From Streptomycetaceae bacterium (lineage in GTDB: Bacteria > Actinomycetota > Actinomycetes > Streptomycetales > Streptomycetaceae): 37,648 nucleotides of DNA. The notes beneath the pieces were generated by a model, which saw only the letters and a program-made list of their open reading frames with translations, ran no database searches and had not been told where the DNA came from. The stretch is from assembly GCA_019243445.1 (NCBI GenBank), contig JAFAUH010000053.1, positions 1 to 37,648 on the forward strand, read 5' to 3'. Shown here piece after piece: positions 14,727-20,269 of this stretch (positions within the stretch are counted from its first letter, which is position 1; the number at the start of each line of letters is the position of its first letter). Position numbers and translations under genes: made by a program.

Positions 14727-14804
14727 CGGCCGGATGATGTGACGGCTGGATGAGGCGTATGTCACCTTCCGGGACAGTCCGCCCCCTCGGGGGTAGGGGA
14801 GCCT

Positions 14805-14810
14805 TAGTCT
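14805..14810 (+). promoter_or_regulatory. -10 box for a leaderless M56 transcript
   Basis: TAGTCT lies 7 nt before ATG 14818. The purine-rich GGGGTAGGGGAG stretch ends too far upstream (about 15 nt) to serve as a normal ribosome site. Confidence 0.5.
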
Positions 14811-14817
14811 TTGCGCC

Positions 14818-15837
14818 ATGACGGTTCCGTTCGTGCTGCTGGTACTCGGCGCACTGACGGCAGCGCTGGCACCGCGTCTGCTGGCCCGAGCCGACTGGCC
14901 TGACCGCGAGCCCGTGCTGGCATTGTGGGTGTGGCAGTGCGTGATCGTCGGCGTCCTTCTGTGTTGTGTGTCGGCGATGGCGTTGTGCGCGTCCGCCGCC
15001 TGGGCCGAGGTGCGCGGGCACGTCTTTGCGCTCGCACCCCGCAGTGTGGTGGACGCGTATGGGCTGGCCAGGTACGGGAGGTGGGCGAGCCCCCTGGCCG
15101 TGCTGCTCGCGTGCGGCGGCGCCTGGACGGCAGCGATGCTCACACGTGAGCTACGCGACGCCGGCACCCAGCGTCGGCGTCGGCGCGCCGAGCTGCGCGC
15201 GCGCTGCCCACGGCTGCCCGGCGAGGCAACATCAGCCTCTCCCTATCTTCCGGGGGCACCTCCCGCCGCAGGCATGGGAAGGGAGGCATCCCCTGACGCG
15301 GCGGGCCCTGCGGGAGGCGGCGAGCACCTGCTGGTCCTGGAGAGTGAGCAGGCCGAGGCATGGCGGCTGTCCGGCTCCCGGCTCCAGCTGGTCATCACGA
15401 CGGCCGCCCTGCGCAGACTGCGGGGCAAGCAGCTCGATGCCGTGCTGGCCCACGAGCGAGGCCACGCCCGGGCCCGCCACGATTGGTTGCTGGCCTGCGC
15501 GTACGCCCTGGCCTCGGGCTTTCCGCAAGTGCCCGTCTTCGCGGGATTCCGTCATCAGGTGCACCGCTTGGTGGAGTTGGCGGCCGACGATGTGGCCTCG
15601 CGGCGCTTCGGCGGGCTGACCACCGCCTTGGCGCTGGTCGAACTCAATGAGGACCGAGGGGTGTTCGGGCCATGCCCTACACCGTTCGCCCAACTTCCGG
15701 GTCGGATCCACCGGCTGATCGACCCCGCTCCACGACTGACGCGGACACGCCGATTGGGAGTGACGGCGGTGGCACTGCTGGTGCCTGCCATTCCCTTGCT
15801 GGTGACCTTCGCTCCTGGTATCAGCGCGCTGACGTAG
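14818..15837 (+). CDS. M56 family membrane zinc metallopeptidase
   Basis: A 339-residue protein with membrane segments at about 4-22, 36-60, 90-108, 222-236 and 312-330. The zinc motif HERGH (212-216), in VLAHERGHARARHDW, and a downstream ELAADDVASRRFGG block with the third ligand Glu identify M56 (BlaR1/MecR1-type peptidase domain without a sensor domain). The active site would face the cytoplasm. A cytoplasmic loop at residues about 140-157 (SASPYLPGAPPAAGMGREASP) is encoded by a palindromic dispersed repeat inserted in frame at 15235-15285. No BlaI-type repressor is adjacent, so this is the free-standing Streptomyces type paired with DUF5134. Its substrate is unknown. Confidence 0.85.
   Translation: MTVPFVLLVLGALTAALAPRLLARADWPDREPVLALWVWQCVIVGVLLCCVSAMALCASAAWAEVRGHVFALAPRSVVDAYGLARYGRWASPLAVLLACGGAWTAAMLTRELRDAGTQRRRRRAELRARCPRLPGEATSASPYLPGAPPAAGMGREASPDAAGPAGGGEHLLVLESEQAEAWRLSGSRLQLVITTAALRRLRGKQLDAVLAHERGHARARHDWLLACAYALASGFPQVPVFAGFRHQVHRLVELAADDVASRRFGGLTTALALVELNEDRGVFGPCPTPFAQLPGRIHRLIDPAPRLTRTRRLGVTAVALLVPAIPLLVTFAPGISALT
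15235..15285 (-). repeat. Dispersed palindromic repeat, copy A (inside M56 gene)
   Basis: This 51-bp segment matches, in inverted orientation, the segment at 19161-19211 at 42 of 51 positions. Shared blocks are GCCTCTCC, GGGCACCTCCC and AAGG/CAGGC...GGGAG. It lies inside the M56 reading frame and, having a length divisible by three, keeps the frame open. In both copies the sequence GGCAACATCAG precedes the element on the plus strand. It looks like one of the small palindromic repeats scattered between Streptomyces genes. Confidence 0.7.
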
Positions 15838-15856
15838 GGGCATCCGGCGTGGGTCG

Positions 15857-15862
15857 TAGCAT
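15857..15862 (+). promoter_or_regulatory. -10 box for a leaderless PAP2 transcript
   Basis: TAGCAT lies 8 nt before ATG 15871; no Shine-Dalgarno sequence is present in the 33-nt gap after the M56 gene. Confidence 0.5.
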
Positions 15863-15870
15863 CGGCGTAC

Positions 15871-16572
15871 ATGTCCGCTGATACCTCCGCGTCCCCGCTC
15901 GCACCCTGGCGTCCCGCCGAGCGTGCCGCCCGGCTCCGCTGCCTGTCTTGGGCGGCCGTGCTGACTTGCGGCTTTCTTGTGCTGCTCGGCCTCCTTCTGG
16001 TGATGCCCGGGCGCCCGTCGTTGCTTTCCCTCGACCGGCGCACCGACACCGCTCTGCATGCTTTCGCGCTGGCCCATCCGGCTGTGACACGACTGTGTCT
16101 CGTTCTGACGGACTGGGTATGGGGCCCGACCCCCATGCGGCTGCTCACGCTGGCGGTGGCCGGTCTGCTGCTGTGGCGGGGTCACTGGCGCCGCGCGGTG
16201 TGGGCGCTGTTCGCATGCGCCGCGGGATGGGCGTTGGAGACGGGGGTGAAGGCGGCAGTCGGCCGTGCCCGCCCGCATTGGCCGCATCCGGTGGACACGG
16301 CCACCGCTGCTTCCTTCCCCTCTGGCCATGCCCTCGCGGCGGCGACGGCCTGTGTGACGCTGCTCTGGCTGACACGGCTGTACGGGGTACGGCGGTGGTG
16401 GTGGACGGTGCTGGTTGCGATTGGCGTGCTGTCCATCACCGGGGCCGGCTTCACCCGGCTCTATCTGGGGGTGCACTGGCCTTCCGACGTGTTCGCCGGG
16501 TGGCTGCTCGGCGGGGCCGTGGCGACGGCGTCGGCGGCCGTGACCGTGCCGTGGAAGCCGGTTGAGCGGTAA
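15871..16572 (+). CDS. PAP2 family membrane phosphatase
   Basis: A 233-residue membrane protein of the type-2 phosphatidic acid phosphatase superfamily. All three active-site motifs are present: KAAVGRARP (K127, R134), SFPSGHA (PSGH 150-153, catalytic His153) and TRLYLGVHWPSD (R196, H202 nucleophile, D206). Five to six membrane segments are seen (about 25-46, 68-82, 90-103, 108-122, 158-170, 178-195, 207-224). The active site would face outside, dephosphorylating lipid phosphates such as undecaprenyl pyrophosphate or phosphatidic acid; which one cannot be told. Starts at ATG 15871, 33 nt after the M56 stop. Confidence 0.92.
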   Translation: MSADTSASPLAPWRPAERAARLRCLSWAAVLTCGFLVLLGLLLVMPGRPSLLSLDRRTDTALHAFALAHPAVTRLCLVLTDWVWGPTPMRLLTLAVAGLLLWRGHWRRAVWALFACAAGWALETGVKAAVGRARPHWPHPVDTATAASFPSGHALAAATACVTLLWLTRLYGVRRWWWTVLVAIGVLSITGAGFTRLYLGVHWPSDVFAGWLLGGAVATASAAVTVPWKPVER

Positions 16573-16615
16573 CGACAGTGAGGGAGCAATCGCTGCAGCG
16601 GGAAGAATCGCGGGC

Positions 16616-16711
16616 ATGACAGCAACTGCGGAAGGCCACTTCAGGGGATGCGTCTTCGACTTCTTCGGCACGCTCTTTCGGAAGGGATCTGCGGTCGGTG
16701 CTCAAACCTGA
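16616..16711 (+). pseudogene. HAD-family hydrolase, N-terminal stub
   Basis: ATG 16616 opens a 31-codon frame ending TGA at 16709-16711. It reads FRGCVFDFFGTLFRK, which is the first strand and motif I (DxxGTL, nucleophile Asp) of a HAD-superfamily hydrolase, and then stops. No continuation of a HAD domain follows in any frame; within 60 nt the yjbQ gene begins. The remainder was probably deleted. GGAAGAA lies 7 nt upstream as a possible ribosome site. The stub is too short to be an enzyme. Confidence 0.55.
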
Positions 16712-16757
16712 TCGGCTGAGTGCGGCGGACGGTGACGCGGGGTCCAGCCACATCGGC

Positions 16758-16763
16758 AATCAT
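16758..16763 (+). promoter_or_regulatory. -10 box for a leaderless yjbQ transcript
   Basis: AATCAT (or CAATCAT) lies 6 nt before ATG 16770; no ribosome site is seen. This is the weakest match of the series. Confidence 0.35.
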
Positions 16764-16769
16764 GGGTGC

Positions 16770-17192
16770 ATGGCTGACACCTTCGTCACCGACACCTTCG
16801 AGCTGACTACCGGCGCCCAAGAGACGGCCATCGACATCACCGAGCGCTGCGAAGCGTTCCTGGCTCGGGCGGCGGGCGGAGCCGACGGCCTGCTCAACAT
16901 CTTTGTGCCGCATGCGACTGCCGGAGTCGCGCTCATCGAGACGGGCTCAGGCAGTGATCGCGACCTGATCGCCGCGTTGCGCAATCTGCTGCCTGCCGAC
17001 GACCGCTGGCAGCACCGGCACGGCAGCCTGGGACACGGACGCGACCATGTCCTTCCGGCCTTCGTGGCGCCGCACGCGACGCTTCCCGTGCTCGGCGGTT
17101 CGCTCACGCTCGGCACGTGGCAGTCCGTCGTACTCGTCGACACCAACAAGGACAATCCGCGCCGCACGGTACGGCTGTCCTTCCTCGGCTGA
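16770..17192 (+). CDS. YjbQ family (UPF0047) protein
   Basis: A 140-residue protein of the YjbQ/UPF0047 family, annotated in databases as secondary thiamine-phosphate synthase enzyme because overexpression of E. coli YjbQ rescues thiE mutants; its physiological role is unsettled. Family blocks are present: GLLNIFVPHATAGVALIE (about 45-62), WQHRHGSLGHGRDHVLPAFVAPHATLPV (about 75-102), and GTWQSVVLVDTNKDNPRRTV. The conserved histidines H53, and those in GLGHGRDH and APHAT, form the putative metal site. Start ATG 16770 gives the usual family length; the frame is open a little further upstream. Confidence 0.88.
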   Translation: MADTFVTDTFELTTGAQETAIDITERCEAFLARAAGGADGLLNIFVPHATAGVALIETGSGSDRDLIAALRNLLPADDRWQHRHGSLGHGRDHVLPAFVAPHATLPVLGGSLTLGTWQSVVLVDTNKDNPRRTVRLSFLG

Positions 17193-17215
17193 AGAGTTCC
17201 GGCGGCCGGTCCCGG

Positions 17216-17581
17216 TCAGCTCGAGAAGCCGATGTGCACGTGATCGTGGTGCGTGTCGTCCGAGAAAAACTCCAGCAGCGCCGAGCAGTACGAACCTTCT
17301 GCCGACAGGACGGTGAAGGGGCTGACGGTTCGCGGATTCGGGGTACAAGGCCATGTGCCGCTCCTCGCGCTGCCGGGCGCATCGGGCGTGCCGGTCGAGC
17401 GCTTGTCGGGCGTCACACGCCCGGTCTCCTGCTCCCGTGGCCTGGTCGCACAGCCGGGCGACGCCATGTCGGCAACCGGGCAGATGCTGTCGGGGCCGCT
17501 CCCCTGCGACGGCCCCGACAGCAATGGGCAGCGCCGACACCGGACGATCCCCCGTGTCGCCCGGTACCGTGCCGCCCCCAT
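17216..17581 (-). pseudogene. Possible remnant of an M15/LAS-type peptidase
   Basis: A minus-strand open frame of about 121 codons ends in GSYCSALLEFFSDDTHHDHVHIGFSS. The terminal HHDHVHIGF resembles the zinc-binding end of LAS/M15-type murein peptidases and extensin-like proteins. The upstream part is rich in Arg, Pro and Gly, has no signal peptide and no first zinc ligand (HxxxxxxxD), so this is at best a decayed 3' fragment. It fills part of the 462-nt gap between yjbQ and the TetR gene. Low confidence; a chance open frame in high-G+C DNA is the alternative. Confidence 0.3.
17485..17523 (+). terminator. Strong hairpin upstream of the TetR gene
   Basis: Two perfect 14-bp arms, 17485-17498 and 17510-17523 (core TGTCGGGGCCG / CGGCCCCGACA), enclose an 11-nt loop. 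This is the strongest stem in the window. It sits in the yjbQ-TetR gap and would insulate the TetR promoter from upstream transcription. No T-run follows. Confidence 0.6.
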
Positions 17582-17616
17582 GGCCGACCGCCCAGGGCAG
17601 TCGGCACCGCGCTGAG

Positions 17617-17634
17617 TATATTGGCTCTGAGCCA
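17617..17634 (+). promoter_or_regulatory. TetR gene promoter and autoregulatory operator
   Basis: TATATT (17617-17622) is a clear -10 box. It abuts the perfect palindrome TGGCTC-T-GAGCCA (17622-17634), which would cover the start of transcription, 20 nt before the regulator's ATG with its CAGGAG ribosome site. This layout is typical of TetR autorepression. Confidence 0.5.
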
Positions 17635-17654
17635 GTCAACGCAGGAGTTACAGC

Positions 17655-18269
17655 ATGTCCCCGCGAAGCGCCTCGGTCAATGAAGAATTGCGCCGCCGCT
17701 CCCGCGAGCGACTACTGCAGGCGACGGTCGAACTTGTAGGCGAACACGGTTACGAGGCCACAACTTTGGCGGACGTCGCGGATCGCGCGGGGGCTGCACG
17801 CGGACTGGTTTCGTACTACTTCCCGGGCAAGCGCCAGCTCGTCCAATCGGCGGTGCACCGGCTGATGCACCTGACGCTCGCCGCCGCACTGGAGCGGGAG
17901 CCACACAGCGACAACGGCAATGAGCGACTGGCCCGTGCGATCGACGCAGTGCTCGGCCTGACTCGCAGCCATCCCACGGTGATGCGTACGCACATGGCGC
18001 TGATCTTGCAGCACGAGGGTTTCATCCAGTGCCCGGAGCAACAGAAACTGGCGGCGCTGCTGGAGGACACGATCACCCGCTGGGGCGCTGCCGATCCGGA
18101 CCAGAGCTACTGGCTGCTGCGGGCGCTGCTGATGGGCGCGGTGGTGGCGCTGCTGCTGCCGGGCGCACCGATGCCGCTGGCCAGCCTGCGGGCCGAGCTC
18201 TTCCAACGGTACGGACTGGCATGGGAGTTGGGCCGTCCGCCGAAAGGAGTTCCACCGCCTCGGAGTTGA
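17655..18269 (+). CDS. TetR family transcriptional regulator
   Basis: A 204-residue regulator. The N-terminal helix-turn-helix reads RERLLQATVELVGEHGYEATTLADVADRAGAARGLVSYYFPGKRQLVQSAV (about 17-67), the standard TetR DNA-binding domain. The C-terminal ligand domain is helical, with THMALILQHEGF and a hydrophobic LLMGAVVALLLPG helix; no ligand can be predicted. CAGGAG lies 8 nt before the ATG. A palindrome overlapping its own -10 region suggests autoregulation. The downstream ung gene has its own start signals, so the regulated target other than itself is not evident. Confidence 0.92.
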   Translation: MSPRSASVNEELRRRSRERLLQATVELVGEHGYEATTLADVADRAGAARGLVSYYFPGKRQLVQSAVHRLMHLTLAAALEREPHSDNGNERLARAIDAVLGLTRSHPTVMRTHMALILQHEGFIQCPEQQKLAALLEDTITRWGAADPDQSYWLLRALLMGAVVALLLPGAPMPLASLRAELFQRYGLAWELGRPPKGVPPPRS

Positions 18270-18389
18270 CGGCGAGTGACCTCAACCGATCCCTTTCAGG
18301 GGGATACCGCGGACGGCACCGAGGCGTCCGTTGCTGCCCTTGGTGATCCTCTCCCGGATGAAGGGCGGTACGCTGCGCAAGATCAAAGG

Positions 18390-18395
18390 TAGAGT
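18390..18395 (+). promoter_or_regulatory. -10 box for a leaderless ung transcript
   Basis: TAGAGT lies 8 nt before GTG 18404; no Shine-Dalgarno is present. Confidence 0.5.
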
Positions 18396-18403
18396 GGCCC
18401 ACC

Positions 18404-19078
18404 GTGGCACGACCCTTGAACGAGATCGTCGAAGCGGGCTGGGCGAAAGCGCTGGAGCCGGTGGCGGAGAGAATCGCCGCGATGGGCGATTTTCTACGCT
18501 CGGAGATCGCTGCGGGCCGTACATACCTGCCGGCCGGACCGAATGTGCTGCGGGCCTTCCAGCAGCCGTTCGACGATGTGCGGGTCCTCATTGTCGGCCA
18601 GGATCCCTACCCCACGCCCGGCCATGCGGTCGGGCTGAGTTTCTCGGTCGCCCCCGATGTGCGCCCGCTGCCTGGAAGCCTGGTCAACATCTTCCGCGAG
18701 TACAGCGCCGATCTGGGGTTTCCGCCTCCGTCCAATGGTGACTTGACGCCATGGACGCGCCAGGGAGTGCTGCTGCTCAACAGGGCGTTGACCACGGCGC
18801 CGCGCAAGCCCGCGGCGCACCGCGGCAAGGGCTGGGAGGAGGTCACGGAACAGGCGATCCGAGCCTTGGTGGCGCGGGGAGCACCCTTGGTATCGGTGTT
18901 GTGGGGACAGGACGCGCGCAATCTGCGCCCGCTGCTTGGTGATCTGCCTGCTATCGAGTCGTCCCACCCCTCTCCCATGTCCGCGGACCGAGGCTTCTTC
19001 GGTTCCCGGCCATTCAGCCGCGCCAACGAATTGCTTACGCGGCAGGATGCGGAGCCCGTGGACTGGCGCCTTCCCTGA
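18404..19078 (+). CDS. ung: Uracil-DNA glycosylase, family 1
   Basis: A 224-residue UDG that removes uracil from DNA to start base-excision repair. The water-activating motif is VGQDPYP (64-70, Asp67), followed by GLSFSV (uracil stacking Phe), LLLNRALT (123-130, Asn recognising uracil) and the minor-groove loop [11 protein letters not shown] (188-198, His188). Length and motif spacing are normal. The GTG start puts the N-terminus [17 protein letters not shown] in line with the family. It is a monocistronic gene between a TetR gene and a repeat-rich intergenic stretch. Confidence 0.95.
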
Positions 19079-19082
19079 TCGG

Positions 19083-19106
19083 CTACGGGGCTACGGGGCT
19101 ACGGCT
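19083..19106 (+). repeat. 8-bp tandem repeat after ung
   Basis: CTACGGGG occurs twice in tandem (19083-19098), followed by a partial third CTACGGCT, directly after the ung stop. The 201-nt gap between ung and the next gene holds only this and the palindromic repeat copy B. Confidence 0.7.
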
Positions 19107-19160
19107 CGTCGCTTTCTGTTCGCCCCACCGCGCCAGCGGCGCCGGCAACATCAGGAGCGG

Positions 19161-19211
19161 CTCCCTCCCCCTGCCTTCGGTGGGAGGTGCCCTCTGCAGA
19201 CGGGGAGAGGC
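19161..19211 (+). repeat. Dispersed palindromic repeat, copy B (intergenic)
   Basis: The 51-bp unit begins CTCCCTCCCC and ends GGAGAGGC, with a TGCCTTCGGTGGGAGGTGCC core that can fold on itself. It is 42/51 identical in inverted orientation to 15235-15285. It ends 68 nt before the start of the kinase gene. Its appearance matches the small inverted repeats common between Streptomyces genes. Confidence 0.7.
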
Positions 19212-19266
19212 TCCGCCACGGACACTGCCGCCCGGTTGCCAGCCGTTGGTTCGCTTCTTCGCCCGG

Positions 19267-19272
19267 TACGCT
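19267..19272 (+). promoter_or_regulatory. -10 box for a leaderless kinase transcript
   Basis: TACGCT lies 7 nt before GTG 19280; no ribosome site is seen. Confidence 0.45.
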
Positions 19273-19279
19273 GCCTTGT

Positions 19280-20269
19280 GTGACAGCACGTGCGCCCCGC
19301 TGGGTTCTGGGGGTCGATTCGGGAGGATCGGGGCTGCGCTTCGCACTCGTCCGGCTGTCCGATGACATGACCGGCCGGGAGATCGTCGCCACAGCCACCG
19401 ACGAGCCGGTGCGCACGGATATGACTGGCATCGCCGCAGACCATCTGCTGACCCTGCTGCGCCCTGCCCTCAAGGACGCCATGACCGATGGCGGGGCCGC
19501 CTACCTCACTGCGGCTGCCATCGGAGCCGCAGGAATGGCATCACTCGGTACGGCACTACGGGAACGGCTGCCTGCGGTGCTGCGTACGGAATTCGGCGTA
19601 CCCAGCGGTCGGCTCGCGCTCGCCGCCGACGCCGTGACGGCGTACGCGGGGGCGCTTGGCATGCGCCCGGGTGCGGTTGTCGCCGCCGGCACCGGAATGG
19701 TCGCGATCGGCACCGGCCTCGGTGCCAGCGGCTGGCGGCGTGCCGACGGCTGGGGCCATCTGCTCGGCGACTGCGGTGGCGGCGCGTGGATCGGTCGTTG
19801 CGGCCTCGAAGCGGCAATGCGTGCCTACGACGGGCGGGAGGGCGGCTCGGGCGTGCTGTGGGCGCGCGTGGAGTCCCTGTTCGGGCACCCTGCCGAATTG
19901 CCGGGGATGCTGTATCCGCGCAGCGACCGGGCTGCCGTACTTGCCTCGTTCGCCCCCGAGGTCGCCCGCTGCGCCGACGAGGATCCGGTGGCCGCCGGCA
20001 TCCTGCGCGCGGCAGCCCGGCACATCCTGCAGGCCGCGGCGGCCGTCCGGCCTGATCACGGCGGTGAAGTGGCGCTCACCGGCGGGCTGTTCAAGATGGG
20101 CGAGCCATTGCTGGAGCCGCTGCGGGAGCAAGCGGAGCGATATCTTCCAGGCGCCCGCCTGATCGCTCCCGAGAGCGACCCGCTGCACGGCGCCGTGCGT
20201 ATCGCGGAGGCTCTGGCGTGCAGCGCACTCCCGCTGCCGATCGACTCCGCACTGCTCACGCTCCATTGA
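19280..20269 (+). CDS. N-acetylglucosamine kinase-type ATPase (BadF/BadG family)
   Basis: A 329-residue ASKHA-fold protein. The phosphate-1 loop GVDSGGSGLRFAL (about 11-23), the AADAVTAYAGAL segment, AGTGMVAIGTG (phosphate-2) and the DGWGHLLGDCGGGAWIG block are typical of the BadF/BadG/BcrA/BcrD family, to which N-acetylglucosamine kinases belong; GDCGGGAWIGRCGL in particular matches GlcNAc-kinase-like members. A later VALTGGLFKMGEP is the adenosine motif. Expected reaction is ATP-dependent phosphorylation of an amino sugar. No transport or nag genes are nearby, so the substrate is inferred only from the family. GTG 19280 is chosen because similarity starts there and a -10 box precedes it. 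Confidence 0.85.
   Translation: MTARAPRWVLGVDSGGSGLRFALVRLSDDMTGREIVATATDEPVRTDMTGIAADHLLTLLRPALKDAMTDGGAAYLTAAAIGAAGMASLGTALRERLPAVLRTEFGVPSGRLALAADAVTAYAGALGMRPGAVVAAGTGMVAIGTGLGASGWRRADGWGHLLGDCGGGAWIGRCGLEAAMRAYDGREGGSGVLWARVESLFGHPAELPGMLYPRSDRAAVLASFAPEVARCADEDPVAAGILRAAARHILQAAAAVRPDHGGEVALTGGLFKMGEPLLEPLREQAERYLPGARLIAPESDPLHGAVRIAEALACSALPLPIDSALLTLH

Follow-up and report, generated by a model that had tools for sequence, protein, structure and literature searches.

A dispersed palindromic repeat lying in frame within protein genes of a Streptomycetaceae bacterium

The window, a stretch of 37,648 nucleotides from a Streptomycetaceae bacterium, contains a gene for a membrane metallopeptidase that carries a palindromic repeat within its reading frame, and a second, degenerate copy of the repeat that lies in inverted orientation between an open reading frame ending at 19078 and the next one (Table 1). 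Matches to the peptidase are found in all 41 family genomes searched, including the window's own genome. The gene had been labelled an M56 peptidase in the original prediction; its product is indeed an HExxH membrane peptidase of the M48/M56 kind, but the M56 assignment is unconfirmed, as Pfam gives Peptidase_M48 and a search of NCBIfam gives no match.

Table 1. Coordinates of the peptidase gene, the two repeat copies and their parts in the window
Feature	Position	Strand	Evidence
HExxH membrane metallopeptidase gene (M48/M56 kind), 339 aa	14818..15837	+	ORF; Pfam Peptidase_M48, E 8.8e-7
78-bp long-form palindromic repeat, in frame, residues 138-163 (TSASPYLPGAPPAAGMGREASPDAAG)	15229..15306	+	BLAST, covariance model R1
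Inverted unit U nested in the long form	15252..15282	-	3 mismatches
HERGH zinc-binding motif, residues 212-216 of the peptidase	15451..15465	+	
Second, degenerate repeat copy	19141..19217	-	R1, 53.8 bits, E 6.2e-9
Unit U in the second copy	19164..19194	+	2 mismatches

The reading frame of the peptidase is open through the repeat, whose length is a multiple of three, so that the gene is unbroken, as had been predicted. The dimensions of the insert differ from the prediction, which described a 51-bp unit adding 17 residues just before HERGH. Specifically, a BLAST search of the window's genome with positions 15200-15320 yields 21 matches, the best of which, besides the query itself, span about query positions 30-107, and this search and a covariance model (R1) together define a repeat of 78 bp that encodes 26 residues and ends 49 residues upstream of HERGH. 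R1 was built from nine repeat copies, including the one in the peptidase, which it scores at 89 bits (E 1.7e-17). The 26-residue block is absent from all 28 aligned peptidase homologues (29 homologue loci were given, and one, L046, dropped out of the alignment), among which the length of the linker varies. Furthermore, the peptidase gene of Streptomyces humicola RB6PN25 (genome G001) is exactly 26 codons (78 bp) shorter than the window gene and aligns to it as two pieces, residues 1-136 and residues 164-339, with three bases between them. The absence of the loop from homologues, proposed as a check on the prediction, is thereby borne out.

Positions 15235-15285 and the reverse complement of positions 19161-19211 are identical at 42 of 51 positions, exactly as claimed, while the best match in 100 windows simulated with a first-order Markov model is 32 of 51, and the mean is 28.9. 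The sequence GGCAACATCAG, said to precede both units, is present at both (15225-15235 and 19144-19154) but, since one copy is inverted relative to the other, it marks opposite ends of the unit on the + strand and so does not constitute a common 5′ flank. No coding signal is detected on either flank of the second copy (locus L073).

R1 detects 35 matches at E <= 0.01 in the window's genome, in agreement with the expectation that the unit is repeated elsewhere in it; three pairs of matches represent one place detected on both strands, leaving 32 distinct places. Twelve of the 32 are in frame inside protein genes. S. humicola, the one further member of the genus compared, has four matches, and a search of 59 other family genomes under stricter filters (61 genomes from 17 genera in all) returned none at E <= 1e-4. 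The Rfam covariance models give no match over positions 14800-19400 up to an E value of 1. A degenerate pattern for the 25-base core matches exactly in no more than 24 stretches, all from Streptomyces or Actinacidiphila, among the contigs of 84,980 species, a collection that may omit records of the window's own genome.

The core matches outside the window's genome include some in other settings. In A. paucisporea (L128, L130, L132, L135, L136, L138, L141, L143 and L146) and A. epipremni (L129, L134, L137, L142, L145 and L149), the 25-base palindromic core lies within longer, nearly identical dispersed repeats of each species, and it looks as if two mobile repeats captured, or were hit by, one 25-base unit. 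In Streptomyces sp. NBC_01306, the core lies in the open frame of an acyl-CoA dehydrogenase gene (L144:1951-3258, + strand), the product of which has 32 residues where the best solved homologue has four, which looks like an insertion. In Streptomyces CB02980, the core lies in the open frame of a gene for a PLP-dependent enzyme (L126:5495-7294, - strand); a solved homologue aligns through this stretch with little gap, and an insertion is not supported there.

The repeat occurs in two main forms, a long form of 78 bp (26 codons) and a short form of 51 bp (17 codons). The core of the short form is a 31-bp unit, U, and the long form is the short form with a further unit U nested in it in inverted orientation, a net difference of 27 bp (9 codons). 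At up to three mismatches, the window's genome has 25 occurrences of unit U, and S. humicola, where the unit also occurs twice in tandem with a spacing of 27 bp, has 19; a control with the unit written backwards gives no match. The consensus folds into a palindromic hairpin of 22 pairs, with 90.8% of cells paired. RNA folds of the element strand at L002 and L005 are more stable than those of shuffled sequences (z -2.45 and -2.76), while the fold of the window copy is no better than its own shuffles (z -0.33). Compensatory base changes are few, involving three pairs, a number reached by 71 of 500 shuffles, and we consider covariation unconvincing as proof of selection on the fold.

The ends of the repeat are not sharp, and the net gain in CobB is 33 codons, not 26. 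GTG directly precedes the core in 12 of 34 copies. A longer conserved flank (CCGTCCGCGGAGC...GGGCGACAGTG), which is perhaps the full-length parent element, surrounds the copies at L078, L016, L010, L077 and L120; some of the copies of this kind are intergenic. In view of these flanks and of the GTG, the ends given here are provisional. Nucleotide alignments against S. humicola, run for six host genes that do not include the acyl-CoA synthetase, reveal neither a target-site duplication nor terminal inverted repeats, at a divergence that would mask a short duplication.

The twelve host genes have open frames and conserved domains and nothing in common in function. Compared with S. humicola, the element is absent in eight, its site is shared in two, and no orthologue was found for one; the twelfth host, a class E sortase with both flanks of the repeat coding in one frame, lies outside the comparison with relatives. 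Taking all relatives together (8 or 10 best homologue open reading frames aligned per host other than the peptidase and the sortase), at least one relative lacks the element at the site for 10 of the 12 host genes. In particular, the element is absent from every genome aligned for an LPG-synthase-like membrane protein (five of five: G001, G016, G013, G012 and G007), CobB (six of six), SbcC (four of four) and BCCP (four of four), the site in BCCP being a variable linker. DXS and PIP synthase have a C-terminal tail without the element in S. humicola, and the PIM acyltransferase, in which the copy is near the C-terminus, lacks it there in S. humicola. The siderophore synthetase of the IucA/IucC type lacks the element in G013 and G016, while S. 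humicola carries the 17-codon form at the same site; the SpoIIE phosphatase likewise has the 17-codon (51-bp) form at the same site in S. humicola, the G013 homologue being too divergent to judge. For the acyl-CoA synthetase, whose reading frame uses the opposite strand of the repeat, only the G007 homologue is close enough for comparison, and it is shorter at this place. The net gain is 26 codons for the peptidase and the LPG-synthase-like protein relative to G001 and for IucA/IucC relative to G013.

Solved structures were compared for three hosts. CobB has no match among them, and the match of IucA/IucC reaches only up to the insert. The best solved chain for the acyl-CoA synthetase aligns in two parts around the insert, which therefore lies in a gap between conserved parts.

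Several observations concern individual hosts. The genes for PIP synthase and the PIM acyltransferase, both of phosphatidylinositol mannoside synthesis (L063 and L065, contig C8 of the window's genome), are neighbours, each with a copy at or near its 3′ end, and the frame of these two copies differs from that of most other hosts. The SpoIIE phosphatase gene (L072:1-2682, - strand) appears to encode a second fragment of the repeat peptide, in degenerate form and farther upstream (TSAFPCLQGGPAAVG). A P-type-ATPase-like gene (L210, named by eye) and an S. humicola gene (L211) look like similar hosts as judged by flank scores only.

Five of the six frames of the consensus unit are open. Shuffled units have a mean of 4.3 open frames, and 44% of them have five or more, so the openness of the repeat is not special. 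Among the 12 in-gene copies, nine are read in the TSASP frame, two in the DMSLP frame and one on the reverse strand; a share of nine in one frame has a probability of about 3e-4 if the five open frames are equally likely, in a test chosen post hoc. A codon-usage test of the flanks was applied to 34 copies, 31 from the window's genome and three from S. humicola, with one weak own-genome match (C50:15525) omitted. In seven own-genome copies, each flank scores at least 5 as coding and the frame is the same on both sides; two further copies (L063 and L076), whose flanks are coding on one strand in differing frames, lie at the ends of genes. The test revealed no broken gene, although it would hardly recognise one. 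The class of coding copies demands an open frame, and gene-breaking copies might be counted as intergenic.

Palindromic DNA in frame within genes was described first as a peculiarity of Rickettsia and then in a few other lineages. The Rickettsia palindromic elements (RPEs; Ogata et al. 2000, 2002) measure 105-146 bp and belong to obligate intracellular alphaproteobacteria, according to the reviews PMC2229807 and PMC10969869. As described there, RPEs resemble the present repeat in being dispersed palindromes found between genes and, in frame, within numerous conserved genes that are unrelated to one another; the host proteins tolerate RPEs, as they probably do the present repeat. The present repeat differs from RPEs in its size of 78 or 51 bp, its GC-rich Streptomycetaceae genome, and its nested inverted 31-bp units that grow by 27-bp steps. 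Judged from lineage and composition, kinship in sequence with the RPE families is unlikely. The protein-coding palindromes of Wolbachia and Methanocaldococcus jannaschii, as cited in PMC2996958, are likewise stand-alone in-frame insertions in assorted housekeeping genes; they belong to other lineages, and the likeness lies in the description. The GTAG/CGTC-tagged REPs, as described in PMC3733652, are short palindromes that sometimes lie wholly within open reading frames, including those of DNA repair genes (compare SbcC here), but their end tag is not visible by eye in the repeat consensus. Bacterial MITEs such as ERIC and Correia/NEMIS, as outlined in PMC2229807, are small non-autonomous repeats, several of which are fused in frame to other open reading frames; unlike them, the present repeat has yielded no terminal inverted repeats or target-site duplication.

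With the RPE-like class the repeat has in common its dispersal in multiple copies, a palindromic hairpin, in-frame positions in unrelated genes and absence from orthologues. None of PMC10969869, PMC3733652 and PMC2229807 uses the word Streptomyces in its main text, and searches of an open-access library for protein-coding palindromes from Streptomyces or other actinobacteria showed no case. We therefore place the repeat in the class of protein-coding palindromes, with a modular build that is possibly new.

Copy number, the sequence relation between copies, in-frame presence or absence at orthologous sites, open frames and the change of form at two sites are direct observations. They are very probably explained by a family of small, non-autonomous, hairpin-forming repeats that multiplied after the split from S. 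humicola and whose in-gene copies are tolerated. Mobility is suggested by presence and absence between sister species, and the proposal of a small mobile repeat that donates protein sequence, made originally from one gene, is much strengthened by 12 host genes with an in-frame copy. Copies would land both in intergenic DNA and in genes. Their movement would be by insertion, with a transposase probably acting in trans on a hairpin or single-stranded intermediate. In-gene copies would persist because the main forms are multiples of three, because five of six frames are open, and because the small Pro/Gly/Ala-rich peptide would be tolerated in loops, linkers and tails, while selection would have purged gene-breaking copies. 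The encoded peptide is most likely neutral or nearly so, an extension of linkers and not an adaptation.

Other accounts of the data carry less weight. It is scarcely credible that the loop is an ancient functional feature of this peptidase subfamily and resembles intergenic DNA only through convergence of GC-rich palindromes: linker length does vary naturally among the homologues, and GC-rich genes often contain low-complexity Pro/Gly stretches, but none of the aligned homologues has the loop, the DNA family occupies 31 other places in the genome, and unrelated proteins contain this peptide at sites that lack it in S. humicola. We also regard it as improbable that the repeat is a selected functional element, such as a site for protein binding or RNA processing, or a module of coding sequence, with the in-gene copies as exaptations. 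The single frame common to nine of 12 copies, and the two in-gene insertions common to S. humicola that have kept their frame despite differing in form, would fit such an element; the hosts, however, are functionally unrelated, the sister species lacks the element at most of these sites, base-pair covariation is weak, and no Rfam family matches.

The swap between long and short forms at the orthologous IucA/IucC and SpoIIE sites resembles turnover in place, as expected if the spread was due to recombination or gene conversion among pre-existing repeats and not to insertion. However, each site that is empty in the sister species and in other genera requires a first insertion, and there is little probability that conversion accounts for the spread. 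A refinement of the insertion model, in which the repeat is a palindrome-associated non-autonomous element moved by a host IS200/IS605-type Y1 transposase, is somewhat less improbable than these, though still doubtful. The window's genome has five Y1_Tnp genes (L150-L154), and S. humicola, with few R1 copies, has none; two genomes make no correlation, however, and S. humicola still has its 19 copies of unit U. With regard to a REP of the GTAG/CGTC type with an associated RAYT gene, Y1_Tnp genes are present in the genome, but the DNA adjoining them does not match the repeat: 19 of 20 alignments score at most one point above the shuffle maximum, and one reached 37 versus 26. Y1 transposase was the only candidate helper sought, and no mobilising gene was identified for the repeat.

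Beyond the family of tolerated insertions, we tentatively propose, as a possibility somewhat short of even, a modular protein-coding palindrome system of actinomycetes, in which the 31-bp unit nests inverted within itself in steps of nine codons and the preferred frame encodes a benign TSASPCL...VPPGAAG linker. Under such nesting, both insertion and later growth or shrinkage would preserve the frame. If this is true, a free-living bacterium would keep gaining new loops from selfish DNA that has been shaped to traverse genes.

The present data suggest that selfish DNA has added stretches of protein to about a dozen ordinary genes of a Streptomyces-like bacterium. A GC-rich Streptomycetaceae lineage offers a dozen in-frame cases, with empty sites in a sister species and two sites at which the form differs between species, and with it the ways in which these elements select genes, persist in them and alter them become directly testable in culturable bacteria.
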